From Pseudomonadales bacterium (lineage in GTDB: Bacteria; Pseudomonadota; Gammaproteobacteria; Pseudomonadales; Azotimanducaceae), in contig JANQOA010000368.1 in the NCBI GenBank assembly GCA_028279305.1, forward strand, positions 62,001 through 126,000: a DNA stretch of 64,000 bases, given 5' to 3'. The position numbers and the translations under genes were made by a program. Positions 14,416 through 46,110 of this stretch are shown piece by piece. A model generated the notes under the pieces. That model was not told the origin of the DNA. It ran no database searches and saw only the letters and a program-made list of their open reading frames with translations. Positions within the stretch are counted from its first letter, which is position 1. Every line of letters begins with the position of its first letter.

Positions 14416-15153
14416 TTATGCCGGTGAGTGCACAGTTTTGCGGTGGGCGGATGCGACCGACTCGATCGAACGTATCGTCCACAATACCGCCAGTGCCCAA
14501 ACAACAATAACCCCGCCTAGAGAGAGCCAGACCGCGGACTGGAAAAAGGGTGCCAATGGGTACACGGCACACCAATAACTGATTGCCATGCCGATATACG
14601 CCGTCCACATCAACCTGGACTGACCCGCGGTGGAATTCCGCTTCAACATCATGGGTATGACCAGCGGGATGCAGAACCAGACCGTCCATCCGAATGTGAA
14701 AAACCACAGCTCGTCCGCCAGGACACTTTTGATTGCAACAAAGGCAACAAATGCACCCGCCAGCGCCAGAAAGATCAACCCGGTCCAGGCTCTTTGAGAA
14801 ATAGAGGGTGCGTACTCTTCACGCCCATACTTGATGGCAAGATATAGAAAGCAGAATTCTTCGATGTTGGTGATGATCAATCCCACCCAATAGAGCTGCA
14901 TGAACCAGTGGTCATATACGTTGAACCACTTGTCGAACATCATGACATAAACCAGATCGTGAGGAATGAATATCAGGGTTGCCACTATAGGCATACTGAC
15001 AACCTTCTGTTTGAAGCCGAGATAAATCCCGCTGCCGAAGTAGATAAAGTTACAGATCAACGCCAACGCGCCAAAAGTAAGCAGGCGCGGTACGTTTTGA
15101 TCAATATTCGCCAGCGTCGATGACACGTCGTAAAGTGACAATATTCCATCCAT
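14416..15153 (-). CDS. Polytopic membrane protein of unknown function
   Basis: 245 residues starting MDGILSLYDVSSTLANIDQN; the upstream start at 15204 would overlap the COX4-like gene and was not used. About seven hydrophobic helices are visible, with charged or polar features between them (MFDKWFNVYDHWFMQLYW, ITNIEEFCFLYLAIKYGREE). I do not recognise the family with certainty. The size and seven-helix layout recall the small membrane terpene-cyclase-like proteins of fungi and bacteria, but that is a weak resemblance. It begins 5 bp after the COX4-like gene, so it is the last member of the four-gene membrane operon. No counterpart exists in the second copy of the module at 44-46 kb. Confidence 0.75.
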   Translation of the reverse strand: MDGILSLYDVSSTLANIDQNVPRLLTFGALALICNFIYFGSGIYLGFKQKVVSMPIVATLIFIPHDLVYVMMFDKWFNVYDHWFMQLYWVGLIITNIEEFCFLYLAIKYGREEYAPSISQRAWTGLIFLALAGAFVAFVAIKSVLADELWFFTFGWTVWFCIPLVIPMMLKRNSTAGQSRLMWTAYIGMAISYWCAVYPLAPFFQSAVWLSLGGVIVVWALAVLWTIRSIESVASAHRKTVHSPA

Positions 15154-15158
15154 TCGAA

Positions 15159-15446
15159 CTAGCTCCCCGTTGCTCCAAAAAACATGAATAACACAGCAGC
15201 GCACACGCCTACCACATAGGCATTCGCCACCAGTCGAAGAGGCAGCGGCGCGATGCCCGCTTCCATAAAATGCATGATCACCAGCCGCACTTTCACAAAC
15301 GCAATCACCATCAACACAACTGTTGCATTGCGGGCGGCCGCCTCATCCCCCGGCGCGTAGCTGCCGCCAACAATCCAGGACAGCAAAGCCGCCGCTGCCA
15401 GGATAAACCAGACAAATGTAATCCGATTTCTAAACAACTGAGCCAT
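15159..15446 (-). CDS. Cytochrome c oxidase subunit IV/NorF-like membrane protein
   Basis: 95 residues with three helices: residues about 9-27, 38-60 and 68-90. The stretch AFVKVRLVIMHFMEAGIAPLPLRLV is the conserved core of the prokaryotic COX4/NorF small-subunit family (K, H, E and R spaced across helix 2 to loop). Its start follows the COX3-like stop directly. A paralogue with the same core (AFAKVWLVAFQFMELRTAPRWLRHV) is at 44456-44731. No catalytic oxidase subunit is present in the window, so it is an orphan accessory subunit. Confidence 0.85.
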   Translation of the reverse strand: MAQLFRNRITFVWFILAAAALLSWIVGGSYAPGDEAAARNATVVLMVIAFVKVRLVIMHFMEAGIAPLPLRLVANAYVVGVCAAVLFMFFGATGS

Positions 15447-16037
15447 TCACCGCACCAGATAAATCAGAGGGAAAAGTACCATCCACAAGAGATCTACCAT
15501 GTGCCAGTAGATCCCTCCGGACTCAAAGTGTTGCACGCCAGGCGCGGATGGATTAAACGCTCTGGTGCGGAAGATCAGATAGGCAAGCACAAACATGCCG
15601 ATGATGACATGCAGAAAATGGATACCCGTGAGCATGTAGTAGTAAAGGAAAAAGTTGTTTGCCTCAACCCCCAGCCCGGCACTCATTTTCTCCCCGTACT
15701 CGAGTATCTTGATCAGAGCAAACAGCGCACCGCAAGCTAAAGCCCCCAGCAGCAGGCGGCGCGCAAGCCTGACATCACCGCGCCGCAATCCCTCGACCGC
15801 ACTGGCGACAAACCACGAACTGGTTAGCAAGACAAAAACATTAAGAGCGCCGTAAAACTGGTTGAGGGTCGCTTGGGATTCAGCAAAGACGGCGGGCTCC
15901 AAGCCACGGTAATAAAGAAAAATCCCGAACAACACAGCGAAGATAAGCATGTCGCCGAACACAAACAACCACACGCCCACTTCGCCGGGTATCCGCCGTG
16001 CTTCGGCTGAGGCGGGTTGGGCAGCAACACCGGTCAT
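15447..16037 (-). CDS. Cytochrome c oxidase subunit III/NorE-like membrane protein
   Basis: 196 residues with five helices. RRIPGEVGVWLFVFGDMLIF, YMLTGIHFLHVIIGM and YWHMVDLLWMVLFPLIYLVR are the classic heme-copper oxidase subunit III motifs (FxxxD, HxxHVxxG, WHxVDxxW). The five-helix length fits the short NorE-like form rather than the seven-helix mitochondrial form. Its start overlaps the stop of the upstream 246-residue membrane gene by four bases. No subunit I or II lies nearby. Because subunit III binds no redox metal itself, its role here must be structural or assembly-related, perhaps for a membrane oxygenase. Confidence 0.9.
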   Translation of the reverse strand: MTGVAAQPASAEARRIPGEVGVWLFVFGDMLIFAVLFGIFLYYRGLEPAVFAESQATLNQFYGALNVFVLLTSSWFVASAVEGLRRGDVRLARRLLLGALACGALFALIKILEYGEKMSAGLGVEANNFFLYYYMLTGIHFLHVIIGMFVLAYLIFRTRAFNPSAPGVQHFESGGIYWHMVDLLWMVLFPLIYLVR

Positions 16038-16774
16038 GACAACGCTGCAGCACCCTGCCCGACCGTTCCGCTCCGCCCGGCCGCTTCAGCACGCTGTTGC
16101 GCAATAATCGCCCGGAACATACAAACCGATATGGTGAGCAACCAGGCGCCAAACACGGAGATAGGCATCCAGAAGACGAGCAATCCGTTCCATGAAAACG
16201 GGCCTTCTTTGGGAATAAACGCCAATGCACCAACCTCGAATGCAAGGGCTGCCCACAACGTGAAATACCCCAGCCAGCGGGGGAATGCCGTGTGTTCATC
16301 GTTGGTGGTAAAACTGATGACGGCAATTGCGATCATTTGAAAAATGAAGTATTGATCCGTTGTCACAAGCGTCAGAAGCGCAAACTCGTGCATCAGATGC
16401 GTGACTTCGGGCGCCCGCTCCGGAGAATAAGCCGCAACTCCAAAAAAGATGGGCGGCAACACCAGGAAGATCGACATCATTATGCCGCCCGCAAATTGGG
16501 TGATCGTCCACACCGGTAACCCGGTTTCCAAACGGCGCATCTGTATCGCTATGACAATGGCAAAAGGCACCATGAATGCAGAAGCCCAGGAAAGGACCAT
16601 GGCGCCGAGTCTTATGTCGAGGCTATTCTCGATATAGAACTGCGCCACCTGTTCGACGCTCCACGTTGCGGGCGGCGGCGGCCACATGTGCAACAGCCCC
16701 CACAAAACAAGTCCATAGGTGAACATAAAGGAAAGTGCCCAGATGAGAATGACGATCTGGCTGCGGTGCGTCAT
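16034..16774 (-). CDS. Six-helix membrane protein of the COX3/COX4-associated module
   Basis: 246 residues with about six helices and no recognisable named domain. The C-terminal half carries FPRWLGYFTLWAALAFEVGA and then PKEGPFSWNGLLVFWMP, which recur almost unchanged in the protein at 45370-46110 (FPRWVAYVNLWAAL ... KDGPFSWHGIVALWIP). Both also share an IRLG...RR segment earlier. It is the first gene of the operon, overlaps the COX3-like gene by four bases, and faces the SnoaL-like gene at 16867 across a 10-bp inverted repeat. I infer a dedicated partner of the COX3/COX4 pair. The function is not established. Confidence 0.82.
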   Translation of the reverse strand: MTHRSQIVILIWALSFMFTYGLVLWGLLHMWPPPPATWSVEQVAQFYIENSLDIRLGAMVLSWASAFMVPFAIVIAIQMRRLETGLPVWTITQFAGGIMMSIFLVLPPIFFGVAAYSPERAPEVTHLMHEFALLTLVTTDQYFIFQMIAIAVISFTTNDEHTAFPRWLGYFTLWAALAFEVGALAFIPKEGPFSWNGLLVFWMPISVFGAWLLTISVCMFRAIIAQQRAEAAGRSGTVGQGAAALS

Positions 16775-16793
16775 ATTCGCCCTCCTTTCATGA

Positions 16794-16826
16794 TTGCATA
16801 CTACGCAACTAGCTTATAGTATGCAA
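16794..16826. promoter_or_regulatory. Perfect 10-bp inverted repeat, MarR-regulon operator (site E)
   Basis: TTGCATACTA (16794-16803) and TAGTATGCAA (16817-16826) are exact reverse complements around a 13-bp spacer. The site is between the divergent membrane operon (start 16774) and the SnoaL-like gene (start 16867). It is the best-formed example of the GCATACTA element found across this locus. Confidence 0.65.
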
Positions 16827-16866
16827 GCGTACTTGTTTTGCCTGTACCGACCAACCGGGAGATATA

Positions 16867-17271
16867 ATGAGTCAGCAAAAATCCACCGTTGAACAGTTTT
16901 ACAAAGCGCTGGGATCCGGCGACAGCGGCGCAATGTCTGCACTGATCGCTGACGACATTGTCGCCACCGCCCACGGCAGCTCTCTGCTGTCGGGCCAGAG
17001 GGGTTACGCAGAAGTGCTGGAAGCGCTGGGCATGCTCAGCCAAATCACAAAAAACGGCATACGTTTTGAAGTTATCAGCATGACTGAAGAAGAGAACCGG
17101 GTGTCCTGTGAGGTTGCCGGAACTTCCGAACTTGTGACCGGCCAGGCTTACAACAACGAATACCACTTCCTTTTCCGGTTCAGGGACGGGCTTATATCAA
17201 GTATCGACGAATATTTTGACACCAAGCTGGTTGATGAGCTGTTCGGACCCATCATGCAGGCTGCGGAATGA
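16867..17271 (+). CDS. SnoaL-like/NTF2-fold protein
   Basis: 134 residues starting MSQQKSTVEQFYKALGSGDS, the standard alpha-helical opening of SnoaL-like proteins. A GGGAGA ribosome-binding site lies 5-10 bases upstream. The C-terminal strand-helix SSIDEYFDTKLVDELFG closely matches the paralogue at 11940. Such proteins act as cyclases, isomerases, hydratases or binding proteins for polyketide- or steroid-like molecules. Its stop overlaps the ATG of the following SDR pseudogene by four bases (ATGA), so the two were once co-translated. Confidence 0.88.
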   Translation: MSQQKSTVEQFYKALGSGDSGAMSALIADDIVATAHGSSLLSGQRGYAEVLEALGMLSQITKNGIRFEVISMTEEENRVSCEVAGTSELVTGQAYNNEYHFLFRFRDGLISSIDEYFDTKLVDELFGPIMQAAE

Positions 17272-18003
17272 CCACTCAACATCTTGCAGACAAAGCCATT
17301 GTCGTCACCGGTTCGTCGCGCGGGCTGGGTCTGCTGCCGCTTGATCGAGACCTGTGCCGCGGAATACGGGCGCATCGACGCGCTGGTCAATAACGCCTGC
17401 ATCGTGCGGGACCGGTCCATCCTCAAAATGAGCGCCCGGGAATTCGATGAGGTGATCTCGGTAGGGTTGCGCGGCGTATTTCTATGCACACGCGAAGCCG
17501 CCCGCGCCATGCAGGATACGGGCGGGCACATTGTGCAGATTGTATCCGCATCAGGGTTCAGCGGTTTCTACGGTCAGGCAAACTACGCGGCGGCAAAAGA
17601 AGGCATTATGGGCATCTTAAGAACCGCTGTACTCGAACTGGAAAAATTTAACATCCGATGCAACGCCTTCTGGCCGGTCGCCCAGACGGACATGACTCAG
17701 GTGATTTTCGATCACGCCCGCAGCCGGGCAAAAGACGGCGGGATTCAGCCTGCTGACATGGGTTTTGGCACGCCTGAAGAAGTGGCTGAAGGTATCCTCT
17801 GGCTGTTAAGCGAAGACGCTGCCCATCTGAACGGCCAGTGCCTTTCCTTCAATGGGCGCCGCATCAGCCTCTGGCGCCATCCGGCTGAAGCTGAGATCAA
17901 GTTTTATGAGCAGGCCGCGTCGTTTGCGGAAATCAGCACCTACATGCAGACAGCAGCACCCCAACCAATTTACGCGCCGTCAATGGTCCAACAACCAACA
18001 TAA
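17268..18003 (+). pseudogene. Short-chain dehydrogenase broken by an internal deletion and frameshift
   Basis: From ATG 17268 the frame encodes MTTQHLADKAIVVTGSSRGLG, a proper SDR start with the TGxxxGxG cofactor loop, but ends at a TAA soon after. The rest of the protein continues in another frame from about 17335: LIETCAAEYGRIDALVNNAC, then the catalytic YAAAK and a normal C-terminus to 18003. Intact SDRs have roughly 60 more residues between these parts, so a segment whose length is not a multiple of three has been lost near 17331-17340. NNACIVRDRS resembles the (3R)-hydroxyacyl-CoA dehydrogenase of multifunctional enzyme 2, suggesting the lost enzyme served beta-oxidation. A TTG at 17284 would give a product without a cofactor site. 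Confidence 0.8.
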
Positions 18004-18020
18004 TGAATTCTTCCGGCAGG

Positions 18021-19238
18021 TCAGCCAAATGCCACCGGCAACGACGTAAACCCACGCAACGCAACATTGGGCACATGGGTTAACGCTTCTTCGGGTACGG
18101 CCAGACGCAGGTTTGACAAACGTTCGTTGACTGCCCGCAGGCCCAGAGCAATCTCTTTGCGCGCAAGCATGGCGCCTACACACATGTGGATGCCGGCGCC
18201 GAATGCGATGTGCCGCTTACTGCGTCTATCCAGACGCAGCTGCCCGGGACATTCATAGACTGCCTCATCGTGATTGGCTGAGCCGATGCGCAGGTGGCAG
18301 ATCGAACCCCTGGGAATATCGACGCCGCCAATGTTCATATCTTGTGTTGCCATGCGAAACAAGCCTTGCACCGCAGAATCGATGCGCAGCACTTCCTCCA
18401 CCAGGCTGGCGTACAAAGTAGGGTCAGCCCGCAGTTGATCAGCGATCCGCGGGTTCCTGATCAGCTGCACAATGCCTGCGGAAAGCGTATTGGTGGTGGT
18501 CTCATTGCCCCCTACAAGCAGCGTACGGATAACGGACAGGAGCTCGGCTGTAGTGAGCGGTTGCTCTTCTTCCGTGCGGGTCTGTACAAGATCCGTGAGG
18601 AGGTCGTCCCGGGGCTGCAACCGGCGCTCTTCCAAACGCTCGACAAAGTAATGTTGAAACTCCACCTGAATCTCAGCAAACCGGACGTGATCTTCGTCGG
18701 AAGCCATCAGCCCCACCGATGAAGCAACCGCCACATCAGTCCATTCTTTAAGCTGGCTGATCTTCTCCCGCGGCACACCCAGCTGATCCGCGATCACTGT
18801 AACCGGCAGCTTCATCGAAAATTCGTTGTGGATATCGGTCCGCCCCTGATCGATAAAGTTGTCGATAAGCGAATCCACAATCTGCTGAATATAAGCCTCC
18901 ATCCTGTTAACCCGGTCGGCGGTAAAAACCTTGTTCACAAGACTGCGATAGCGGTCGTGAGAGGGCGGATCATTGCTGGTTAACGTATCGACAAAATCAC
19001 CATACCCGGTGGCATAGATACGTTCCGTGGCCTCGCTTGAATACCTGGGGAACCCCTCTTTGCTGGAATAACCTTGCCAGTTCTTAAACGCTTCCTTGAC
19101 GTCTTCGTACCGGCTGATGACATAAAACCCACCCTGGGGGTCCAGATATACAGGGGCGTCTGTCCGCAGGGATTTGTGAAAATCCCACGGACACTCCTGT
19201 GTTTCCGGGCTCATTAGGGAACCGTAATTCATGCCCAC
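18021..19238 (-). CDS. Cytochrome P450
   Basis: 405 residues, a soluble bacterial P450. The I-helix oxygen-activation motif is VGGNETTTN, the K-helix ExxR is in EEVLRIDS, and the heme-binding loop is FGAGIHMCVGAMLARKE with the axial cysteine near residue 350. It is convergent with the SDR pseudogene and has its own promoter with a 14-bp palindrome of the local MarR-type element. No ferredoxin gene adjoins it. In the context of paired acyl-CoA dehydrogenases and MaoC proteins it could hydroxylate a terminal or ring carbon of a terpenoid- or steroid-like substrate, but the CYP family cannot be named here. Confidence 0.94.
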   Translation of the reverse strand: MGMNYGSLMSPETQECPWDFHKSLRTDAPVYLDPQGGFYVISRYEDVKEAFKNWQGYSSKEGFPRYSSEATERIYATGYGDFVDTLTSNDPPSHDRYRSLVNKVFTADRVNRMEAYIQQIVDSLIDNFIDQGRTDIHNEFSMKLPVTVIADQLGVPREKISQLKEWTDVAVASSVGLMASDEDHVRFAEIQVEFQHYFVERLEERRLQPRDDLLTDLVQTRTEEEQPLTTAELLSVIRTLLVGGNETTTNTLSAGIVQLIRNPRIADQLRADPTLYASLVEEVLRIDSAVQGLFRMATQDMNIGGVDIPRGSICHLRIGSANHDEAVYECPGQLRLDRRSKRHIAFGAGIHMCVGAMLARKEIALGLRAVNERLSNLRLAVPEEALTHVPNVALRGFTSLPVAFG

Positions 19239-19253
19239 TCCACTTGATAGAAT

Positions 19254-19278
19254 GCATGTATATTATACGCATGCGTAT
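19254..19278. promoter_or_regulatory. Overlapping palindromes upstream of the P450 (site F)
   Basis: ATACGCATGCGTAT at 19265-19278 is a perfect 14-bp palindrome followed by TA. It is nested in a 21-bp near-palindrome GCATG...CATGC (19254-19274, 8 of 10 pairs). The first matches the MarR-type element; the ATGTATA part also resembles the operator of the adjacent TetR at 20652-20677, so dual control is possible. Confidence 0.55.
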
Positions 19279-19284
19279 TATCCG

Positions 19285-20016
19285 TCAATAGCGGACCCGC
19301 TTCTCCATCTGTTCTATTGCACAAATTACAGCGTCCGGCGCCTGGCAGGGGATATTGTGGCCACATCCCGGAATTGTCCGGACTTCGCTGTCCGGACTGA
19401 CCTGCCTGAGTATTTCCAAGTCGGAATCAAGAACCACTTTCGAGTGCTCACCGACCAGCAAGGTTGTCGGCACCCGCAGCCTTCTCATCACACCCCACAA
19501 AGTTTCACCCATATCTGCCGGTACCGGCGTCCACTTTGAAATGCATGTGTCTCCATCCGGCCCCATGTACAGCCCACGGTTCAGGGCTTGAACTACCCGC
19601 TGAGAGTGTCGTTGACAAACACCCGGAATCACATCTACAAGCGTTAAGCTACATACTGAACCAGGGTAAATATCCGCGGTACTCAGGGCGAGCAATCCAC
19701 CGTATGAAAACCCTACGAAGTGCGCGGGAGATCCAACGACTTGTCGAACAGACTCTGCTGTCCAATGAGCAATATCAGCAGGCCAGTAGGTACCCGTGGT
19801 AACGGGATCCGAATGCCCACATCCCGGCAGATCCAGTGCAACAACCGGTTGTTCCAGTCCGGTTGCTGCGGCACGCCAGGCGTGTGCATTCTCGAACCCC
19901 CCGTGGAACAGCACGCATGGCGTACCTTCCCCTTCCCAAACCAACGCGCTGAGCGTGCCCCGTTCTGTTTTAGCAGCACGGCGCCGCGGCGCACGGGTAT
20001 TCCCGTTTTTAATCAT
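19285..20016 (-). CDS. Alpha/beta hydrolase
   Basis: 243 residues from ATG 20016 (overlap of 8 bp with the TetR gene); an alternative start at 20061 would overlap by 53 bp. Fold motifs: oxyanion HGGFENAHAW, strand-loop DLPGCGHSDPV, nucleophile elbow VGFSYGG with the catalytic serine, and C-terminal GCGHNIP with the histidine. The substrate is probably an ester, lactone or C-C bond of a ring-fission product. It follows the TetR gene in the same direction and precedes the P450, so it may be controlled by that regulator. Confidence 0.9.
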   Translation of the reverse strand: MIKNGNTRAPRRRAAKTERGTLSALVWEGEGTPCVLFHGGFENAHAWRAAATGLEQPVVALDLPGCGHSDPVTTGTYWPADIAHWTAESVRQVVGSPAHFVGFSYGGLLALSTADIYPGSVCSLTLVDVIPGVCQRHSQRVVQALNRGLYMGPDGDTCISKWTPVPADMGETLWGVMRRLRVPTTLLVGEHSKVVLDSDLEILRQVSPDSEVRTIPGCGHNIPCQAPDAVICAIEQMEKRVRY

Positions 20017-20644
20017 CTGCCGCTCTGACCGTGGCCCCGTGTAACAGGACATCGAACTCACTCAAGAGCTTTTTCTCCAGGCTTTCTCTACGCCTCCAAA
20101 AGCCGGTCAGCCAGGTATGAATCGCGACGAATTGAACAGCAAAGGTCATCTCGGCAAGTTTGTCAGGATCGAGTTCACGATGGATTTCGCGGCGCTCCTG
20201 GGCAGCACGATAAAGACCTGCGTAGAGATTAAATCCTTGCTCCCACCCATTGTTTGCGCCGCTATGGGTACCGGTGGAACGCCGCGGCAGCATTGCGCCT
20301 GACCGCTCGTAAACCAGACGCATGAATTCACGATCCTGCGAAACAGCACGCGCCAAAAGCCGGATACCTTGCCGGATCCGGCCAACCGGACTTTCACTCC
20401 CGGTACCTTGAACCAGTCTGCGACGGGTTTTTTCCAGCTCGCATCTCAACCAATTGTTGCCAATAGCGGCCAGGATCTCTTCTTTGGTGCCGAAGTAGTT
20501 GACTAAGGTTTGCCGGGAGACGCATGCCTCGCCGGCGATAGCCGCCATGGTGGTCCGGCTGAAGCCGCGTTCGCGAAACAAACGCTCCGCCGCGTTGAGA
20601 ATCTCCTCTCCGACAAGTTGTTTCTTTGCTTCTCTAAGAGACAT
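20009..20644 (-). CDS. TetR family transcriptional regulator
   Basis: 211 residues. The N-terminal HTH covers ERGFSRTTMAAIAGEACVSR and the following QTLVNYFGTKEEIL, the normal TetR signature. The C-terminal ligand domain is rich in Arg and Leu helices without a recognisable subtype. It is divergent from the C-N hydrolase at 20693; the 48-bp gap is almost filled by an inverted repeat (20652-20677). It is followed by the alpha/beta hydrolase with which it overlaps. It probably represses both directions. Confidence 0.92.
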   Translation of the reverse strand: MSLREAKKQLVGEEILNAAERLFRERGFSRTTMAAIAGEACVSRQTLVNYFGTKEEILAAIGNNWLRCELEKTRRRLVQGTGSESPVGRIRQGIRLLARAVSQDREFMRLVYERSGAMLPRRSTGTHSGANNGWEQGFNLYAGLYRAAQERREIHRELDPDKLAEMTFAVQFVAIHTWLTGFWRRRESLEKKLLSEFDVLLHGATVRAADD

Positions 20645-20651
20645 GTAGGTA

Positions 20652-20677
20652 TACTATGTATATTTTTATACATTGTA
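20652..20677. promoter_or_regulatory. TetR operator between divergent genes
   Basis: ATGTATA (20656-20662) and TATACAT (20667-20673) are perfect arms around TTTT, extended by TAC/GTA on the outside with one mismatch. The site occupies most of the 48-bp gap between the TetR start and the C-N hydrolase start. Position and symmetry strongly suggest the TetR binding site. Confidence 0.65.
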
Positions 20678-20692
20678 CACTTTTTTGAAGCC

Positions 20693-21460: not shown

Positions 21461-21482
21461 GACTATTTGTAGAGGCATCAGC

Positions 21483-22103: not shown

Positions 22104-22114
22104 GCAAGCGCCGG

Positions 22115-36728: not shown

Positions 36729-37475
36729 TCACTGCGCGGACCAGCCGCCGTCGATGGACATTGCTTCCCCGGTCACAAAACTCGCCTCATCCGAAAGCAG
36801 CCAGACAACCGCCTTGGCAATCTCGTCGGGGCAGCCGATTCGCGCCATGGGTGCCATTTCCGCCAGCGCATTTTCATCAATACCGGCGTCCTCCAGATGT
36901 CCGATAATGGGCGTTCGTACCGCTCCGGGGCACACCGCATTCACCCGCACACCCGCGTTGGCATATTCAACCGCTGCAGATTTGGTAAGCCCGATCACCC
37001 CATGTTTGGACGCAACGTAGGCGCATTGCCCCGGCAGCGCGACAAGCCCGGCGACCGACGCGTTGTTGACAATTGCACCCCCATGGTTCCTGAAATGAAG
37101 AAGCTCCTGTTTCATGCACAGCCATACACCTTTCAAATCAACCGCGACTACCCGGTCAAAATCTTCTTCACTGGTATCAGCAAGCGGCAGCGTGGCGGAA
37201 CCAATGCCGGCGTTATTGAAAGCGCCATCCAGGGAACCAAAAGCATCGAGGGTGTCGTTGAACCCCGCTTCGACCTGCCGGGCGTCTGTTACATCGACGA
37301 TAAAACCGCGGCAGCGCCCGGTCGAGAGAGAAGCGCACTGCATGGCCTGCTCGATCTGCTCGGGATCCAGATCCCATAAGGCAACAGATGCTCCGGAAGC
37401 GAGCAGGTGCTTACTGGTCGCCAGGCCAATTCCCGAAGCACCGCCGGTAACGATAATCACCTTATCCTCAAGCAT
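36729..37475 (-). CDS. Short-chain dehydrogenase/reductase
   Basis: 248 residues with the classical SDR layout: VTGGASGIGLA cofactor loop, NNAGIGSATL, catalytic Ser in VNNASVAG region, YVASKHG active-site Tyr/Lys, and VCPGAVRTPI. The C-terminal ASFVTGEAMSIDGGWSAQ is standard. The acidic residue after the second strand (LWDLDPE) indicates NAD(H) preference. It overlaps the upstream F420-type reductase by 8 bp, and probably oxidises the alcohol made by the neighbouring P450 for the BVMO. Confidence 0.94.
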   Translation of the reverse strand: MLEDKVIIVTGGASGIGLATSKHLLASGASVALWDLDPEQIEQAMQCASLSTGRCRGFIVDVTDARQVEAGFNDTLDAFGSLDGAFNNAGIGSATLPLADTSEEDFDRVVAVDLKGVWLCMKQELLHFRNHGGAIVNNASVAGLVALPGQCAYVASKHGVIGLTKSAAVEYANAGVRVNAVCPGAVRTPIIGHLEDAGIDENALAEMAPMARIGCPDEIAKAVVWLLSDEASFVTGEAMSIDGGWSAQ

Positions 37476-37941
37476 CTGCGGTGCTTGCCTTTCTTCTCAA
37501 TACAACCACCGGAATCTGCCGGTCGGTCGCTTCCTGATAGCTGATATAGGGAGGATAGATGCCTGCCATCTTCTCCCATAAACGCGCACGTTCGTCTCCC
37601 GCAGCGACCCGGGCCGCAGCTTTGAAGCGCTCAGCCTTAATTTGAACATCCGCCTCCCCACTGGCCATGAGGTTCAGGTACCACGCCGGGTGATGGGTGT
37701 GTCCCGCCTTGGATGCAACAATCACAATGTCTTCACCGTCCTCACCAAAAATCAGCGGCAACACCAGTTCATTACCTGATTTTCGGCCAATTGTTCTAAG
37801 GATCAGCGTTGTCACAACACCGGCCCCGCCGACTAGCGTTGAATCCCAGAGATAGCCGTCCTCACCATCTGTTTCCAGATATCGCCGTAAGTGTTCATGC
37901 AAAGGGTCGGTCAGTTCTTTTGGAAATCCATCAAGCTTCAT
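37468..37941 (-). CDS. Deazaflavin (F420)-dependent nitroreductase-family oxidoreductase
   Basis: 157 residues from ATG 37941 (MKLDGFPKELTDPLHEHLRR); a longer frame to 38157 enters the promoter/TetR region and was rejected. LILRTIGRKSGNELVLPLIF and IVASKAGHTHHPAWYLNL are the signature of the DDN/F420H2-quinone-reductase family. Such proteins use F420 and are abundant in actinobacteria; occurrence in Gram-negatives suggests transfer or an altered cofactor. It heads the operon SDR-P450-BVMO. Whether this cell makes F420 cannot be told from the window. Confidence 0.85.
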   Translation of the reverse strand: MKLDGFPKELTDPLHEHLRRYLETDGEDGYLWDSTLVGGAGVVTTLILRTIGRKSGNELVLPLIFGEDGEDIVIVASKAGHTHHPAWYLNLMASGEADVQIKAERFKAAARVAAGDERARLWEKMAGIYPPYISYQEATDRQIPVVVLRRKASTADA

Positions 37942-37983
37942 GATTGTTAACTCCACTTTCTCTAACTCATCGGCGCACAAGTT

Positions 37984-38015
37984 TAGAGGGTTTCCTCTAT
38001 AGAGTAAACCCTCTA
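37984..38015. promoter_or_regulatory. Perfect 10-bp inverted repeat with nested palindrome
   Basis: TAGAGGGTTT (37984-37993) and AAACCCTCTA (38006-38015) are exact complements. The 12-bp spacer contains the palindrome CTCTATAGAG. The site lies between the divergent TetR gene (38084) and the F420-type reductase operon (37941), which makes it a strong candidate operator of the TetR. Confidence 0.7.
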
Positions 38016-38083
38016 TTTTTTGGACGCCGCGGACGCGCGCTGTTACGATTACACCTGTCTGTTGATCGGAAGAAGATCGAAAC

Positions 38084-38719
38084 GTGAGTAACAAGCAAAG
38101 AATCATCGATGCGACCATAGAACTGATGAATGAACGCGGCGGCGCTGTCGGCACCACCCAATTGGTCGAACACCTGTCGATCAGCCCGGGTAACCTGTAC
38201 TACCACTTCCGCAACCGCGAAGAGATTCTGGCGGAGGTATTAGCCCAACTGCGGCTTGATCTGGACGAGGTGCTGATTCTGGAAGCAGATGAGGTTCCAG
38301 ACGCCCGGCATCTCGCCGAGGTACTGATAGGCGGTGCCAGAGTGCTTTGGCGTTACCGGTTCTTTTTCTCTTCTTCGATTGAACTGGTCTCGAGAGAAGA
38401 AGCCCTGGTCACCAGTTATCGGGATTTCTGCATTCGAGGGACGCGTCAGGTTGAGACAATTCTCGATCGCCTGCTTGTACCACCGGTTGGAATAGTACGC
38501 TTGAGCAGGAAAGATCAGGCTAAGCTGGCTGAGACACTATGGGTTTTGTGGACCAGCTGGCCACGTTATGCCGAGCTTCTGGCAGGCCAAGGGAGTTCCG
38601 AAAAGGAGATACTGCGTAATCACGAAGCCCTCGAGTTCGTACTCAAACCTTACTTCGAGCCCAAGTTTTACAGATCAGTAGTCGCTCAAACCAGAACACT
38701 GCAGGTTCTGGAAGGATAG
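38084..38719 (+). CDS. TetR family transcriptional regulator
   Basis: 211 residues from GTG 38084. The HTH is atypically placed at GAVGTTQLVEHLSISPGNLYYHFRNREEILAE, normal for TetR. The long C-terminal half (LIGGARVLWRYRFFFSSSIELVSR) looks like a variant with a TetR_C-type domain. It is divergent from the BVMO/P450/SDR/reductase operon and almost certainly its repressor, given the strong inverted repeat between them. Confidence 0.9.
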   Translation: MSNKQRIIDATIELMNERGGAVGTTQLVEHLSISPGNLYYHFRNREEILAEVLAQLRLDLDEVLILEADEVPDARHLAEVLIGGARVLWRYRFFFSSSIELVSREEALVTSYRDFCIRGTRQVETILDRLLVPPVGIVRLSRKDQAKLAETLWVLWTSWPRYAELLAGQGSSEKEILRNHEALEFVLKPYFEPKFYRSVVAQTRTLQVLEG

Positions 38720-39201: not shown

Positions 39202-39203
39202 GG

Positions 39204-40194: not shown

Positions 40195-40209
40195 AATGCA
40201 TATTATACA
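40186..40209. promoter_or_regulatory. Symmetrical element overlapping the YHS start
   Basis: ATGCAT (40189-40194) A ATGCAT (40196-40201) is flanked by TGTAT (40186-40190) and ATACA (40205-40209). It overlaps the YHS start codon and faces the alpha/beta hydrolase start at 40287. The MarR at 39204 is the obvious candidate to bind it, controlling both directions. Confidence 0.45.
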
Positions 40210-40286
40210 CCCCTTCGGTCGAAAATGGAACCTCCAGGCACCGTTCCGAGCTATCATGAGAAGCAAAGACGCTTTTGGAGTTTGGC

Positions 40287-41141
40287 TTGGCAAAACTAAC
40301 GCTGCAATCCACAACTCTTGAGTACACTGAAAGCGGCAGTGGTCAACCGATTGTGCTAGTCCATGGCTCAGCAAGTGACTTCAGGACATGGGACCAACAA
40401 ATGGGCGAACTCGAGTCGCGTTTTCGAGTGGTCAGATACAGTCGCCGTTACCATTGGCCCAACGAACCTATCGCTGAGGGAGCAGAATATGCAATGTCTG
40501 ACCAGGTCGACGACTTGGAGCAATTGCTGCAACAACTAGGTCTTGCGGGTGCGCACATTGTCGGCCACTCATACGGTGCTTACCTGGCGCTGATGGTAGC
40601 GATAAGAAATCCGACCTTGTTGGGCCGCCTGGTTCTTGCTGAGCCTCCAGTGATACCTCTTTTCACCAGCTTTCCGCCCAAACCGCAGGAGGTTCTATGG
40701 TTGCTGGTGACTAAACCCAATACCGCTTTACCTATAATTAGATTTGCAGCCACTGGCCTTGGACCAGCTTCTTCAGCTGCCAAAAATGATGATATGGAGA
40801 CTGCGACCGCTCATTTTGGAAAAGCAGTGTTAGGCAGTGACGCTTTTAAAAACCTCTCGCAAGCACGCATGCAACAGGTCCGGATCAACAGCAGCAAGGC
40901 GGAATTGCTCAGTGATAGTTTCATGACCCCGTTGGATGAGAACGATGTAAGGCATATTAAGGCTCGAACGCTTCTGGTAACGGGGGATCAAAGCCCAATA
41001 GTTTTTCATCGACTCATCGATGGATTGGAAGAATTGCTGCCCAACAGGGAGCGCGTGAATATACCGAAAGCCTCGCACATCATGCATGAAGACAATTCCG
41101 CGGCGTTCAATCGAGCCGTATTGTCGTTTCTCGGAGCATAG
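40287..41141 (+). CDS. Alpha/beta hydrolase
   Basis: 284 residues from TTG 40287, six bases after GGAG (40277-40280). Motifs: HGSASDFRTWDQQ (oxyanion), nucleophile elbow VGHSYGAYLAL with the catalytic Ser, acid in LVTGDQSPIV, and histidine in PKASHIMHEDN. A TTG start is unusual, but no in-frame ATG precedes the conserved core. It is divergent from the YHS-MarR-GNAT operon. Base composition of this gene looks lower in GC than the catabolic genes around it. The substrate is unknown. Confidence 0.88.
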   Translation: MAKLTLQSTTLEYTESGSGQPIVLVHGSASDFRTWDQQMGELESRFRVVRYSRRYHWPNEPIAEGAEYAMSDQVDDLEQLLQQLGLAGAHIVGHSYGAYLALMVAIRNPTLLGRLVLAEPPVIPLFTSFPPKPQEVLWLLVTKPNTALPIIRFAATGLGPASSAAKNDDMETATAHFGKAVLGSDAFKNLSQARMQQVRINSSKAELLSDSFMTPLDENDVRHIKARTLLVTGDQSPIVFHRLIDGLEELLPNRERVNIPKASHIMHEDNSAAFNRAVLSFLGA

Positions 41142-41164
41142 TTGAATGACCGTTCCTGGCCGAT

Positions 41165-41177
41165 CCGAGCAGCTCGG
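41165..41177. terminator. Small hairpin between convergent genes
   Basis: CCGAG CAG CTCGG in the 52-bp gap between the alpha/beta hydrolase (plus) and the DUF7009 gene (minus). No T-run follows on either strand, so the terminator role is uncertain. Confidence 0.3.
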
Positions 41178-41193
41178 GTCCGATGTATCACAG

Positions 41194-41556
41194 CTAGTGC
41201 TGAACGTTGGGATTTGCAAACGTCCCGGTTTGATCTTCACCCTCAGCCGGATTGATACACGTAAAGTCCTTCTCAATCAGAATACTGGTCTCACCATCGT
41301 CCAGCGGTGCAACGCCTCGTATGGATACCTGGTCAGTAGCCGCCCACCTTTGCGCAATATCGTTTGATATGGACACCTCAATAGTCGAATCCACAAATTG
41401 CGCCTGCACATCCCTGCCGCCTACGGACAATTGATAGAAAAGTGTCCCGCCAGGCATACTGGTTTTGCCCACAACATCCCTACCGGCCGCAATGGCTTCA
41501 ACCTCGGGTTCCAACAGCCGGAGCCGAATCGAGTCTTCTAAGAGCCGCAATTTCAC
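41194..41556 (-). CDS. DUF7009 family protein
   Basis: 120 residues from GTG 41556, which overlaps the stop of the 59-residue upstream ORF (GTGA). The start MKLRLLEDSIRLRLLEPEVE, central GTLFYQLSVGG and the C-terminal SILIEKDFTCI match the DUF7009 family, small proteins of unknown function often beside molybdoenzyme or stress genes. It is the last gene of the molybdopterin oxidoreductase operon. Tight overlap suggests a role in maturation or regulation of that enzyme, which is an inference from context. Confidence 0.78.
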   Translation of the reverse strand: MKLRLLEDSIRLRLLEPEVEAIAAGRDVVGKTSMPGGTLFYQLSVGGRDVQAQFVDSTIEVSISNDIAQRWAATDQVSIRGVAPLDDGETSILIEKDFTCINPAEGEDQTGTFANPNVQH

Positions 41557-41732
41557 TGGGTTACCACCTCCTGCTTATCTCGTTGCTTCCGCTTGGGAGC
41601 AGGCAGAAACACCTTCTTTACGAAGCCGTCTACGCCTGTATGCTTGAACGTGAACATCTTGTTGGCGACCCTGGACATCACCTTGGACTTCAGCTCAAGC
41701 ATCCGGTGTTGATGCGCCGTTCTTTTGGTCAT
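41553..41732 (-). CDS. Small basic protein (59 residues), unknown
   Basis: Reads MTKRTAHQHRMLELKSKVMS then a strongly basic stretch ending in KQEVVTQ. Its ATG overlaps the molybdopterin oxidoreductase stop (ATGA) and its stop overlaps the DUF7009 start (GTGA), so it is precisely stitched between two coupled genes. I do not recognise a family. The lysine/arginine-rich composition without a membrane helix suggests a cytoplasmic nucleic-acid- or protein-binding role. It was short enough to be overlooked but the double overlap strongly supports translation. Confidence 0.65.
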   Translation of the reverse strand: MTKRTAHQHRMLELKSKVMSRVANKMFTFKHTGVDGFVKKVFLPAPKRKQRDKQEVVTQ

Positions 41733-43939
41733 GACGCAGCAAGCCCCTCGTTTGATCCCTCTTCGAGCAAAGAGGGTTTCTCAACTTTGACCACCCGGCC
41801 CGGATACCCCTTGAAGTGTGGGATGCCTTGTTCATAGTCCAGAAATTCATCGTCGTCTGAACACAGCACTGCATCGCTTGAGATAAACGCACCGCCAAGC
41901 TCTGCCTGGCCGCGAAGTTCCGGGTACCACCAACCGTGGGGTACCCGCAGATGTCCTTCTTTCATGTTTTCTTTGACGGCAAGTTCTGCCGTAACCTGTC
42001 CGTAGGCCGTCTGCAGCTCCACCCAGTCTCCGTCAGCCAGCCCTTCTTTCTCTGCATCCGCCGGGTGTATGAAGATACTCGGCAACGGACAACGCCTGCG
42101 AAGCTCAGGAATGTTTCGCTGGCCTGTCTGGAAAAAAGGATCCTCGCGCACGCCGGAGAACACCGCGTATGGGAACTCCTCCGTCAACGCCGGACCTTCC
42201 CGGTGATACGGCAGCGGGTCGAAGCCCAGATCCTGCAAAACCGAGGAAGACAGTTCTACCTTGCCCGAAGGTGTTGCAAAGCCGGTCTTCCGGTATTTGC
42301 GAAACTCCGGTGTCTGCATTTCCATGAAGCCAGTCTTTTCAAACTCGGCAAACGTCCGGCCTGAGCGCGAGAGCCTGTAATCAATCACATCTTCGATGGT
42401 TTCCCAGGGAAAACGATTGCCAAAGTCAAAACGCCTGGCCAGATCTTTCCAGAACTGATATGTGCTGCTGATGTCTTCACCAGGCTCTACGGATTTCTGC
42501 GACAGCGTCAGACGTGCGGTCCAGCTCCAGCTATCCGCAACGTGGTTGCGTTCACTGAAGACGTCACCGGGCATGACATAGTCCGCCAGCATCGCCGTTG
42601 GCGTCATAAAGATTTCGTGGGCAACGATCAGTTCCTGATTCATCATCGCCTTTAAAATCTGATGTTGATTCGGGTAACTCATGAGCGTGTTGTTACCCAG
42701 CGTGAAAAACGCTTTCACCGGATAGGGATCTTCCGTCGCCATGGCCCGGAACAGGTTTGATGGATTAGCCATGTGGCAACCCATGACGAGGTCCGCGTAG
42801 GGAAAGCCCCAGACTTTCTCAGTGGGTTCTTTCAACATTTCGGCCACCCGGTAGGTGTATACCGGATGGTCGTCATACCCGAGTTGCTTGGCTTTCTGTT
42901 CTGCGGGCAACTCCTCGTGCAGCGCAATCTCTGTCTCCGGGATATAGCCTTGGCTGAAGCCGCCCAGCGTCTCACCACCCACAACGTCCAGGTTACCTGT
43001 CACTGCACGCAGTATCGAATGCAGTCGAATGGCAGACGTTGAGGAGATCTGCATATCCGTAATGGGTGTCCAGGGAATGATCGAACCATCAGCGTTGGCA
43101 TACATGCGGGCCGCTTCTGCGATCAGTTTGCGGTCTACCCCCGTGATCTCTTCAACACGCTCTAGCGGGTATTCATCAACACGCGCCTTCAACTCATCAA
43201 AGCCGATACACCAATCCCGAACAAACTCTTTGTCGTATAACTCTTCGTCAAAGATGACTTTCAACCAGCCTAAGCACATCGCGGCGTCAGTACCCGCACG
43301 CAGCCGCAGGTGAAGATCAGCCACTTCCGCCTGCTCCGAAACCCGAGGATCAAGAACAATCACTTTCGCACCGCGGGCGCGCGCCGCTTCAATCTGGTTG
43401 TAAATAGGGGTCCAGGAGTGCTTCTTCGGATTGTGACCAAAAAGCACAATGCAGTTAGTGTTACCGAAATCGCCCATCGGAAACCAGCCGTAGGTCAGCT
43501 TGTTTACCGCCGCTGTATTGCCTGCACAAAGGGCAACGCCGCTGGTCCAATTGGGAGAGCCTAACAAGTTCATGAAGCGCCGGTCGGCGCCGTAGGTCAC
43601 CTGAGTGTTCCAGCCGGACGTTGAAACCGCAAAACTCTCAGGGCCGTATTGATTCACAACCTTTTTCAGGCGCTCCGCAATCTCATCCATCGCCTGTTCG
43701 TAAGAAATCTCTTCCCACTTGTCTGCACCACGCTCACCCACGCGTTTCAGCGGTTTGCGGAGCCGCTCCGGGTGATTATGAATACTGGGCGCCGCCACAC
43801 CTTTAAAACAGATGTTGTTGGCCAACATCGGGTTGTCGTGGGCGATTACCCGGCTCACTTGCCCGTCCTTGACTTCAGTCCTCAACTGACAACCGATGTC
43901 ACAAATGCTGCACACCGAATATTTTGCTTCCGCACCCAT
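41729..43939 (-). CDS. Molybdopterin oxidoreductase (DMSO reductase superfamily)
   Basis: 736 residues. The N-terminal 4Fe-4S site is CSICDIGC plus a fourth Cys in ANNICFKGV (C-x2-C-x3-C-x27-C). The probable metal ligand region is GVALCAGNTAAVNKLTYGW. Then come molybdopterin-guanine-dinucleotide contacts (NTNCIVLFGHNPKKHSW, KVIVLDPRVSEQAEVADLHL) and a C-terminal molydopterin-binding domain (FIHPADAEKEGLADGDWV). No signal or Tat leader, so it is cytoplasmic. No partner FeS or membrane subunit adjoins it. It resembles the acetylene-hydratase/CO2-fixing-like catalytic subunits of the superfamily more than nitrate reductases. Follows MarR directly; precedes the 59-residue and DUF7009 genes. Confidence 0.92.
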   Translation of the reverse strand: MGAEAKYSVCSICDIGCQLRTEVKDGQVSRVIAHDNPMLANNICFKGVAAPSIHNHPERLRKPLKRVGERGADKWEEISYEQAMDEIAERLKKVVNQYGPESFAVSTSGWNTQVTYGADRRFMNLLGSPNWTSGVALCAGNTAAVNKLTYGWFPMGDFGNTNCIVLFGHNPKKHSWTPIYNQIEAARARGAKVIVLDPRVSEQAEVADLHLRLRAGTDAAMCLGWLKVIFDEELYDKEFVRDWCIGFDELKARVDEYPLERVEEITGVDRKLIAEAARMYANADGSIIPWTPITDMQISSTSAIRLHSILRAVTGNLDVVGGETLGGFSQGYIPETEIALHEELPAEQKAKQLGYDDHPVYTYRVAEMLKEPTEKVWGFPYADLVMGCHMANPSNLFRAMATEDPYPVKAFFTLGNNTLMSYPNQHQILKAMMNQELIVAHEIFMTPTAMLADYVMPGDVFSERNHVADSWSWTARLTLSQKSVEPGEDISSTYQFWKDLARRFDFGNRFPWETIEDVIDYRLSRSGRTFAEFEKTGFMEMQTPEFRKYRKTGFATPSGKVELSSSVLQDLGFDPLPYHREGPALTEEFPYAVFSGVREDPFFQTGQRNIPELRRRCPLPSIFIHPADAEKEGLADGDWVELQTAYGQVTAELAVKENMKEGHLRVPHGWWYPELRGQAELGGAFISSDAVLCSDDDEFLDYEQGIPHFKGYPGRVVKVEKPSLLEEGSNEGLAAS

Positions 43940-43954
43940 AGTTTTAGCCCTCTT

Positions 43955-44383
43955 CTAAATCTGATTTGCCGCCAACGGCTCTGTCAGCGTCGCCAGCATG
44001 TCTTCAAGTTGTTCCCGTCGATCCAAACCCAACCTTTCCAGCAGTTCGTTCTGGACCGCATACCACAGCGGCACTGCGCGTTTGAACGCGTCGCGGCCCT
44101 TGCGGCTCAAGTGAATCGTTTTACTGCGGGCATCCGGCCCGACTCTGGTATGGATAAGACCCATCTTTTCCAGGACTTTCAGGTTCCGGCCTAACGTACT
44201 GCGTTCAAGCTGACTGGCGTCAGCAAGATCCGTTAAGGTCGGCGCTTCCAGACTTCTGATAAGGTTCAACTGAGAAAACTGGGTCACGCTGATTCCAGAC
44301 GGCGCCATGGCATCGTCATAAGCCTGCGTAAGCTGCTGCGCCGCAGACCGCAAATCAATACAGAGACATCGCTCATCCGACAT
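43955..44383 (-). CDS. MarR family transcriptional regulator
   Basis: 142 residues starting MSDERCLCIDLRSAAQQLTQAY. The wHTH region is LTDLADASQLERSTLGRNLKVLEKMGLIHTR with the wing VGPDARSKTIHLS. Cysteines 6 and 8 near the N-terminus could serve redox sensing. It precedes the molybdopterin oxidoreductase by 15 bp on the same strand. A perfect 20-bp palindrome lies 12 bp upstream of its start, probably its own operator. It is also downstream of the COX-like operon, so it separates two functional groups. Confidence 0.92.
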   Translation of the reverse strand: MSDERCLCIDLRSAAQQLTQAYDDAMAPSGISVTQFSQLNLIRSLEAPTLTDLADASQLERSTLGRNLKVLEKMGLIHTRVGPDARSKTIHLSRKGRDAFKRAVPLWYAVQNELLERLGLDRREQLEDMLATLTEPLAANQI

Positions 44384-44395
44384 ATTGCGCGTACC

Positions 44396-44415
44396 TACCC
44401 GTAATATTACGGGTA
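44396..44415. promoter_or_regulatory. Perfect 20-bp palindrome upstream of the MarR gene
   Basis: TACCCGTAATATTACGGGTA reads the same on both strands. It sits 13-32 bp upstream of the MarR start, exactly where an autoregulatory operator would be. The MarR-molybdopterin operon and perhaps the COX-like operon (end at 44456) would be under its control. Confidence 0.72.
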
Positions 44416-44455
44416 TATACTCATATGTGCGCGCAAATGTAAAGTCATTATTGCT

Positions 44456-44731
44456 TCAAAATTCGCAGATGATCAGCAGAACTACGCATACCCCCACTAT
44501 CCAAACCTCGAACACATGACGCAGCCAACGCGGGGCGGTGCGCAACTCCATAAATTGGAAGGCAACCAGCCAAACCTTGGCAAACGCCACAACAAGTACC
44601 CCTGCGATGGCCAGAGAAGCGCCGCTAGCAGTCCCGGCGCCCAGCCACCAACCCACGGCGGTGGCAACTAGAAGCACCAGCCAGGTAACTGTCATCGGGC
44701 GGGCAGCCAAATCGGTTCCATGTTGATTCAT
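44456..44731 (-). CDS. Cytochrome c oxidase subunit IV/NorF-like membrane protein (copy 2)
   Basis: 91 residues with three helices and the conserved core AFAKVWLVAFQFMELRTAPRWLRHV, matching the paralogue at 15159-15446. It starts 12 bp after the COX3-like gene. It is the last gene of the second oxidase-like module. No catalytic oxidase genes adjoin it. The recurrence of the COX3/COX4 pair in two catabolic contexts argues for a conserved accessory function. Confidence 0.85.
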   Translation of the reverse strand: MNQHGTDLAARPMTVTWLVLLVATAVGWWLGAGTASGASLAIAGVLVVAFAKVWLVAFQFMELRTAPRWLRHVFEVWIVGVCVVLLIICEF

Positions 44732-44743
44732 GATTTAATCCAG

Positions 44744-45370
44744 TCAGAGCAGATAAAACAGGGCAAACAAAACAATCCACAGCAGATCCACCAGATGCCA
44801 GAACGTAGCTCCGCTTTCAATGGTGGCTAGTTCCCGCTTTGTAAATGCCGGGCGCAGGCTGGCCCGCCGCACCACCAGCAAAACGCCGATCCCAACGATC
44901 ACATGCAACAGGTGGATGCCGGTAAACATGAAGAAGTACATGTAGAAGTCGTTGGTCGCGGGCGTTAGTCCAGCAGAAATTTTGTCACCCCACTCAAAGA
45001 TTTTGTTAACGGCAAAGAGGATCCCACTGAGTATTGCCAGGGTGAAGTAACGGCTGGCCGCAGCGCCGCCGCCCGCCCGGCACGTTACAACACCAACCGC
45101 CACAAACCAGGACCCGGTTAACAGCAGTACCGTATTCAATACGCCAACCCGCATATCGAGTGATTCGCGAGCCTGGCTGAAAACAAGCGGCTGATCCACC
45201 TGTCCCAGCGCGATCAAGACAAAAAAGACAGCGAAGACGATAAGATCACCGGCTACAAACAACCAGATGCCGATCTCACCCGGAACGTGTTTTCCTTCAG
45301 GTGCACCGCCGATTATTGCGGCGCTCTGCAGCGATCGCGTTGCGGAACAACCCGCAGGGTTATCCAGCAT
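44744..45370 (-). CDS. Cytochrome c oxidase subunit III/NorE-like membrane protein (copy 2)
   Basis: 208 residues with five helices. GKHVPGEIGIWLFVAGDLIV, MFTGIHLLHVIVGIGVLLVV and FWHLVDLLWIVLFALFYLL are the subunit III motifs seen in the first copy (15447-16037). Its ATG overlaps the preceding stop by one base (TGATG at 45370). The N-terminus carries an extra ~18 residues compared with copy 1. It is sandwiched between the six-helix protein and the COX4-like gene in the same order as copy 1. Confidence 0.9.
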   Translation of the reverse strand: MLDNPAGCSATRSLQSAAIIGGAPEGKHVPGEIGIWLFVAGDLIVFAVFFVLIALGQVDQPLVFSQARESLDMRVGVLNTVLLLTGSWFVAVGVVTCRAGGGAAASRYFTLAILSGILFAVNKIFEWGDKISAGLTPATNDFYMYFFMFTGIHLLHVIVGIGVLLVVRRASLRPAFTKRELATIESGATFWHLVDLLWIVLFALFYLL

Positions 45371-46110
45371 CAGGCTGGTGCAGCCGTCTCAACTGCTTCA
45401 ACTTTGCTTTGTTTCACCGCACTGAGTAACGACACAGACATCACCGCAATCCAGGCGAAATAGGCGAGGTAGGGAATCCAGAGCGCTACGATGCCGTGCC
45501 AGGAAAACGGTCCATCCTTAAAGAATATAATCAGCATACCCGGCACATACAGCAGAGCGGCCCACAGATTTACATAGGCTACCCACCTGGGGAACGGTTC
45601 GCTGCCTTCGTCAGCCCAGAGGATCGGCAATGCGATGACGACACACCAACCGCCGAACAACGGCACCGAAAACAAGGCGAGGAAGTATGCGAAATCGATC
45701 CACGTCACAATGATGGACGGCTCATAGAGTTCAGGTCTGAAGGCAGCCAATCCCCAGGCAAATGCCACCAGAACGCCAATGGTCATTGCCGCCGCGGCGA
45801 ACACCGCTTGGACAATCGAGAACATCGGGTTCACCTCGGCTCGCCTTGTCTGCGCGGCGATACCCGCGCCCAAGGTACCGAACAGTGCAAACGACAGGAC
45901 CATGAAGGCGGAACCCAGCCTGATGGCGAAGGCGTCTGCGGATACCTTGCTGACGAATTCCGCTGATGTTTCCGCGGAATTGAACAGCGGCGGCAGCATG
46001 CCGCCGAGAATAACTCCGCCTATGATGAAAAAAACAATACAAGCAAAGCCGGTCATGGCACAGAACACCATGGATTTTCGGAACATTGGATCGTCATCGA
46101 TTGTCTTCAT
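45370..46110 (-). CDS. Six-helix membrane protein of the COX3/COX4-associated module (copy 2)
   Basis: 246 residues from ATG 46110, preceded by AGGAGG-like sequence; the upstream ATG at 46125 has no such site. FPRWVAYVNLWAALLYVPGM and DGPFSWHGIVALWIP align with the copy at 16034-16774. Both share an early IRLG segment and a basic QTRR/QMRR stretch. About six helices, no cofactor motif. Its pairing with COX3- and COX4-like genes in both clusters marks it as a member of a new conserved module. No function is known to me. Confidence 0.82.
   Translation of the reverse strand: MKTIDDDPMFRKSMVFCAMTGFACIVFFIIGGVILGGMLPPLFNSAETSAEFVSKVSADAFAIRLGSAFMVLSFALFGTLGAGIAAQTRRAEVNPMFSIVQAVFAAAAMTIGVLVAFAWGLAAFRPELYEPSIIVTWIDFAYFLALFSVPLFGGWCVVIALPILWADEGSEPFPRWVAYVNLWAALLYVPGMLIIFFKDGPFSWHGIVALWIPYLAYFAWIAVMSVSLLSAVKQSKVEAVETAAPA

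Follow-up and report, generated by a model that had tools for sequence, protein, structure and literature searches.

Subunits III and IV of the heme-copper oxidases (CtaE/CyoC/QoxC and CyoD) have no redox center, and in the oxidases these COX3- and COX4-type proteins pack beside subunit I. Small membrane proteins of the same two types, NorE and NorF, are encoded by adjacent genes in the operons of the cNOR-type nitric oxide reductase (NOR; norCBQDEF) and are still described as being of unknown function. Their operon partners NorQ and NorD insert FeB into NOR, according to two reports (PMC9976466, PMC13036017). In the window analyzed here, a stretch of 64,000 nucleotides from a Pseudomonadales bacterium of the Azotimanducaceae (assembly GCA_028279305.1, contig JANQOA010000368.1, positions 62,001 to 126,000 of the forward strand), NorE- and NorF-like genes occur twice in the company of a gene for a predicted six-helix membrane protein, which we call SIX. 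These are two of four SIX-NorE-NorF copies in the genome. The module is real and recurrent, and its parts are a known family, NorE/NorF, and an unnamed one, SIX. It resembles the cNOR operons in the adjacency of its COX3- and COX4-type genes and in that NorE falls among its COX3 proteins in a phylogenetic tree, but it differs in lacking NorB, NorQ, and NorD, in having SIX as its neighbor, in its four copies within one genome, and in its catabolic surroundings. Its small proteins likewise belong to the same Pfam families as oxidase subunits III and IV, but the module has no subunit I, and its COX3 proteins are split from those of the oxidases (two rows only) by a branch with 99% SH-aLRT support. 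A literature search, with most subscription papers outside its reach, found no description of such a module, in agreement with an earlier note made on this DNA from its sequence.

Four modules without an oxidase

Both window copies run on the minus strand in the order SIX, COX3-type, COX4-type, from 16774 to 15159 (module 1) and from 46110 to 44456 (module 2). All their genes are open frames with ATG starts and no internal stops, and their ends overlap or nearly touch as the earlier note had described: the SIX-NorE junctions measure -4 bp and -1 bp in modules 1 and 2, and the NorE-NorF junctions 0 bp and +12 bp. The note had spoken of a duplicated module. Two copies do lie in the window, but SIX profiles hit exactly four places in the assembly (5.70 Mb, 399 contigs, completeness 97.4%, contamination 6.6), two on the window contig (C361) and one each on C294 and C189. 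Moreover, a recent duplication of the window copies was rejected, because they are only 24% (SIX), 40% (COX3), and 33% (COX4) identical; the COX4-type proteins of all the genome's copies share 26-36% identity.

The earlier note had proposed two genome-wide checks, one for SIX beside further COX3/COX4 pairs and one for separately located oxidase or nor genes. The first yields the four modules: COX3 matches lie at the four SIX places and on C192 and C19, and COX4 matches at the same four places and on C19. All four SIX genes adjoin a COX3/COX4 pair and none adjoins subunit I; conversely, every COX3/COX4 pair found away from the oxidase loci is accompanied by SIX, as follows from the profiles hitting exactly these places. 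Given the contamination estimate, C189 and C294 might in principle not belong to this organism; both copies of the window lie on the same contig. The second check finds COX1 (PF00115) only on C192, C19, and C151, away from the module contigs. The C19 locus encodes a subunit II with cytochrome c domains, then COX1, two COX3, and COX4; we take the C192 locus to be ctaC-ctaD-ctaG and that on C151 to be ccoN-ccoO-like, and from their neighbors the three PF00115 genes are presumably ctaD, a caa3-type subunit I gene, and ccoN. NorB is not among these three hits of the 97.4% complete genome. The sole CbbQ/NorQ-family gene found lies off the module contigs on C246, no search of the genome for NorD having been made. 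This lone AAA gene stands beside a frame that by eye is glyoxalase/dioxygenase-like, though NorB was not found.

The same absence extends to other organisms. Ten proteins (of the kinds subunit I, NorB, subunit II, and NorC) were run with phmmer against 92 loci or regions (1.6 Mb); neither subunit I nor NorB turned up there, while all eight control loci were matched. Relatives with an adjacent subunit I gene, which would speak against the earlier note's view of a module devoid of subunit I, were thus looked for in these loci and not found. From this and the four copies of the genome itself, the trio is an accessory set without its oxidase. The single subunit-II-like frame in these loci (L070, 4927-5670) lies 3 kb from a pair of SIX genes in a locus with no COX3; it matches the C19 subunit II with an E-value of 2.4e-19, possibly via cytochrome c domains.

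Linkage and distribution

Among 143 genomes of the window's class, its own included, four carry SIX, and for each of their eight SIX genes a COX4 gene lies at a distance of 0.6-1.0 kb on the same strand. Of the 40 COX4 hits above the cutoff in this sample, 32 have no SIX alongside. A scan of species genomes returned 61 SIX loci, whose titles name Alpha-, Beta-, and Gammaproteobacteria and Actinomycetota. When these are combined with the genome's own loci, 33 of 36 COX3 matches are within 450 bp of SIX on the same strand, the remainder being two divergent neighbors of SIX (18 and 194 bp) and one partial match. Both samples show a linkage beyond what chance would give. The association is also evident on plasmids: COX3 lies no more than 3 kb from SIX in 18 of 19 SIX-bearing records, and in 16 of these the two are at most 0.9 kb apart on the same strand; the records include plasmids of Sphingobium amiense, S. 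cloacae, S. herbicidovorans (2.7 kb), Novosphingobium resinovorum, and Rhodococcus, and the exception is a Streptomyces plasmid. On the plasmid of Streptomyces sp. NBC_00080 (L100), a SIX gene lacking NorEF comes after genes for a hydroxylase and a flavin reductase, with a mycofactocin cluster alongside. Trio linkage and tight junctions are maintained across phyla.

In 17 genomes reached through loci already holding SIX, SIX matches range from 1 to 49 (274 in total), COX4 matches from 1 to 10 (76 in total), and COX1 matches from 1 to 7, and the SIX counts do not track those of COX1. Mycobacterial genomes hold as many as 49 SIX matches. Mycobacterium rhodesiae JS60 has catabolic islands rich in SIX paralogs (L113-L126), with 34 matches in 280 kb and 49 genome-wide.

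Across 43 complete trios, Mantel correlations are 0.72 for SIX-NorE, 0.64 for SIX-NorF, and 0.85 for NorE-NorF, dropping for divergent pairs to 0.24, 0.11, and 0.54. The presence of NorEF, mapped as a label on the SIX tree, requires 16 changes, at least 10 of them on supported branches, versus 28.5 with shuffled labels. The partnership is therefore clustered on the tree, yet often gained, lost, or remade. Two of the loci, L072 and L073, carry almost identical trios under the titles Gammaproteobacteria bacterium and Klebsiella pneumoniae metagenome-assembled genome; the second is probably a misassigned bin.

NorE kinship and the naming of the small proteins

A tblastn search of plasmids with the COX3-type protein of module 1 returns, in its upper ranks, a mixture of COX3 proteins from SIX modules and from nor operons. 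In five nor-operon regions, COX3 is surrounded by cytochrome c, a protein annotated as cbb3-type subunit I (the annotation of NorB there), CbbQ/NorQ, and a VWA protein (NorD), and the gene that follows it is annotated as COX4 in three and as a short hypothetical protein in two. A tree of 50 COX3 proteins (42 from modules, five NorE, one NorE-like, and two from oxidases; quick search, no bootstrap) places module and NorE proteins together, apart from the two oxidase rows, with the NorE proteins nested among those of the modules, although 21 of its 47 inner branches are weak. By sequence, then, the module COX3 proteins group with NorE of the NOR operons and not with oxidase subunit III, and we name them NorE-like on the strength of these regions and the tree; NorF-like is a name given by adjacency. 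The closest solved sequences to the module COX3 proteins are oxidase subunit III chains. On a plasmid of Thiothrix fructosivorans (L097), genes of the NorE-NorF type precede those for hemerythrin, NorQ, and a VWA protein, and the annotation of the 10.6-kb region covered includes no NorB.

The SIX family

The two window SIX proteins are diverged, but both contain the motifs FPRW..Y..LWAAL, GPFSW.G, and IRLG recognized in the earlier note, and their families (333 homologs for SIX-1 and 118 for SIX-2 at E<=0.001) prove homologous when their profiles are aligned (hhalign probability 99.9, E 3.9e-35). SIX lacks a dedicated Pfam model; neither protein has a Pfam match above the cutoff (best 0.12, DUF6056), and SIX-1 matches no Pfam or NCBIfam family at E<=0.01. 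At the same threshold, three of 36 diverse SIX rows match DUF4386 (PF14329; best 4.3e-6), a family of unknown function, and single rows match four other families; neither window protein, however, matches DUF4386 even at E<=1. Profile comparison relates SIX neither to NorE, nor to AveC_like proteins (hhalign probability 2.2), nor to the fourth gene of module 1.

The AlphaFold2 model of SIX-1 is confident (pLDDT 92.2, pTM 0.87), with predicted long helices at residues 3-26, 51-82, and 88-116, a broken pair at 122-137/143-156, and further helices at 166-185 and 198-244, together with a short helix at 40-49; no solved fold stands out in structure comparison. Among 120 SIX sequences, PRW is retained in at least 119, both glycines of GPFxWxG in all 120, and an acidic residue of helix 4 in 115. 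By contrast, the 36 diverse rows have no conserved His, Cys, or Met column, the best reaching 14, 12, and 16 rows, respectively. With a best His column of 14 of 36, SIX lacks conserved His ligands for heme and Cu like those of the heme-copper oxidase core.

Gene neighborhoods

Module 2 belongs to an extended run of genes on one strand that reaches from 48487 to 41729, with successive gaps of 7, 48, -1, 12, 72, and 15 bp, and the fourth gene of module 1 starts 5 bp past the COX4-type gene (Table 1).

Table 1. Genes of the two modules and their runs in the window
Feature	Coordinates	Strand	Evidence
SIX-1, six-helix membrane protein, 246 aa	16034..16774	-	Open frame; AlphaFold2 model
NorE-like (COX3 family) protein 1, 196 aa	15447..16037	-	PF00510, E 8.9e-16, above gathering cutoff
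NorF-like (COX4_pro) protein 1, 95 aa	15159..15446	-	PF03626, E 4.9e-8, above gathering cutoff
Fourth gene of module 1, 245 aa	14416..15153	-	Predicted fold SWEET/cystinosin/KDEL receptor-like
MarR-family regulator after module 1	13871..14314	-	PF12802, E 2.2e-15; gap 101 bp
trans-Anethole-oxygenase-like protein, opens module 2 run	47474..48487	-	phmmer to 8s1j, E 1.6e-23
Flavin amine-oxidase-type FAD oxidoreductase, module 2 run	46159..47466	-	PF01593, E 6.4e-33; gaps 7 bp and 48 bp
SIX-2, six-helix membrane protein, 246 aa	45370..46110	-	Open frame; hhalign to SIX-1 family
NorE-like (COX3 family) protein 2, 208 aa	44744..45370	-	PF00510, E 8.2e-13, above gathering cutoff; tree
NorF-like (COX4_pro) protein 2, 91 aa	44456..44731	-	PF03626, E 7.5e-13, above gathering cutoff
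MarR-family regulator after module 2	43955..44383	-	PF12802, E 4.6e-9; gap 72 bp
Molybdopterin oxidoreductase, 15 bp after the second MarR gene	41729..43939	-	PF00384, E 2.8e-35

The earlier note had tied the module to oxygenases, a link that is weak. For the first gene of the module 2 run, whose product has no Pfam match, the note's MpaB-like call fits by the similarity to trans-anethole oxygenase (8s1j), and Rieske and P450 genes occur no more than 3 kb from module 1. Across loci, however, such genes seldom abut SIX: only 1 of 13 P450, 0 of 16 Rieske, and 0 of 8 Baeyer-Villiger monooxygenase-like genes are within 450 bp on the same strand, versus the 33 of 36 COX3 genes. Nor are they enriched within 3.5 kb of the module relative to distances beyond 5.5 kb (P450, 4/132 versus 2/133, p 0.45; Rieske, 3 versus 2, p 0.68). 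The oxygenases are loose neighbors, except for the oxygenase-like gene in the module 2 run, and the enriched neighbors are instead flavin oxidoreductases. The neighborhoods feature flavin enzymes of the CrtI/amine-oxidase type (CrtI/CrtO-like), short-chain dehydrogenases/reductases (SDRs), and acyl-CoA enzymes, with MCE genes near one plasmid module. On a plasmid of Azoarcus sp. KH32C (L093), COX3-COX4-SIX has 2-hydroxyacyl-CoA dehydratase genes on one side and an acyl-CoA dehydrogenase/thiolase run on the other, which hints at a use beyond oxygenase pathways.

In mycobacteria and some proteobacteria, SIX often has a member of the AveC_like spirocyclase family (PF17198) as its neighbor (10 of 23 matches lie within 450 bp on the same strand), but this family has no profile similarity to SIX; the window's own genome gave no AveC_like match, in a search in which no control matched either. 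In several mycobacterial loci (L030, L033, L041 [= L123], L042, L057, L058, L116, and L124-L125), AveC_like adjoins NorD-like VWA and NorQ/CbbQ-family genes, as if a MoxR/VWA chaperone pair served the AveC-like membrane protein. The fourth gene of module 1 has a predicted fold like that of the SWEET, cystinosin, and KDEL receptor proteins, but no significant Foldseek E-value, and its family accompanies few modules (13 matches over all loci).

Possible roles of the module

We tentatively favor the view that the products of SIX, NorE, and NorF form a redox-inactive membrane complex that binds lipophilic substrates and passes them to catabolic enzymes, with each copy probably serving its own pathway. 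The three proteins would bind one another, as suggested by the coupling of their genes and by the analogous packing of COX3 and COX4 proteins in oxidases; SIX would occupy the place of NorB or subunit I, with NorE and NorF as its accessory subunits, and the complex might bind, move, or present lipophilic substrates for catabolic enzymes. Such cargo is suggested by the flavoenzymes, SDRs, and acyl-CoA enzymes near modules, by the MCE genes near one of them, by the relative of an alkene-cleaving oxygenase in module 2, and by the transporter-like predicted fold of the fourth gene in module 1. As the most diverged member of the trio, SIX would be where specificity resides. We rank handling of substrates above electron delivery, given the absence of any conserved metal ligand and the lack of a specific partnership between oxygenases and the module. 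These same observations, the lack of conserved His, Cys, or Met in SIX and the rarity with which oxygenases abut it, make it quite improbable that the module delivers electrons to, or assembles, the oxygenases of its cluster, as the earlier note had proposed, even though module 2 shares a run with a trans-anethole-oxygenase relative and a flavoprotein and Rieske and P450 genes lie near module 1.

A close rival, and a possible one, is that the SIX proteins are themselves enzymes embedded in the membrane, such as isomerases, cyclases, or hydratases with terpenoid- or steroid-like substrates, with NorE/NorF stabilizing or activating them. The expansion of paralogs with nearby regulators resembles enzyme diversification, the acidic residue of helix 4 and the PRW motif are retained, and the neighbors include CrtI/CrtO-like flavin enzymes and AveC_like proteins; against this, SIX matches no enzyme fold or family, including AveC_like, and no catalytic motif was identified. 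We lean slightly toward handling over catalysis on account of the fourth gene, with its transporter-like predicted fold, and of the MCE genes close to one module. It is improbable that a respiratory enzyme encoded at another site, whether an oxidase or one for handling nitric oxide (NO), relies on the module as an accessory or maturation factor: genes of NorE/NorF type do belong to nor operons, whose NorQD act in FeB insertion, but NorB was not found in the window's own genome, the modules are distant from subunit I, and SIX numbers are untied to those of COX1. For SIX as a known oxidase assembly factor no supporting match came up: the 36 rows match only DUF4386 and the single-row families, and no linkage to subunit I was found. 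Finally, NorE and NorF could be functionless passengers or decaying duplicates beside SIX, as their lack of a redox center in oxidases and the strong divergence of the COX4-type proteins might indicate; this we regard as very improbable, since COX3/NorE family residues are retained in 34 module proteins and the trio's linkage and junctions hold across phyla.

A wider extension of substrate handling, which we consider rather unlikely, is that NorE and NorF serve quite generally as accessory subunits for membrane proteins whose lipophilic ligands come out of the bilayer, NO in NOR and hydrophobic organic compounds in the SIX modules. SIX would then be an unrecognized class of substrate-specific membrane proteins of catabolic islands that share NorEF, AveC-like, SWEET-like, and flavin-enzyme partners. 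Since NorE and NorF are still without an assigned function, their recurrence in the absence of NOR opens a new way to approach them, and the operons beside one unnamed family provide a simple genetic system for probing their role. SIX itself is a large membrane-protein family, so far without annotation, that occurs in the catabolic regions of mycobacteria and of proteobacteria from the environment. A gene annotated as "cytochrome c oxidase subunit 3" in a cluster of this kind does not necessarily point to respiration.

Other features of the window

Two further genes of the window are of interest in their own right. One (37468-38157) encodes a member of the F420H2-dependent quinone reductase family (PF04075, E 2.6e-32) and adjoins SDR and P450 genes. 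The other (57652-58746) encodes a single protein with two AsnC/Lrp-type helix-turn-helix stretches, resembling an internally duplicated regulator.

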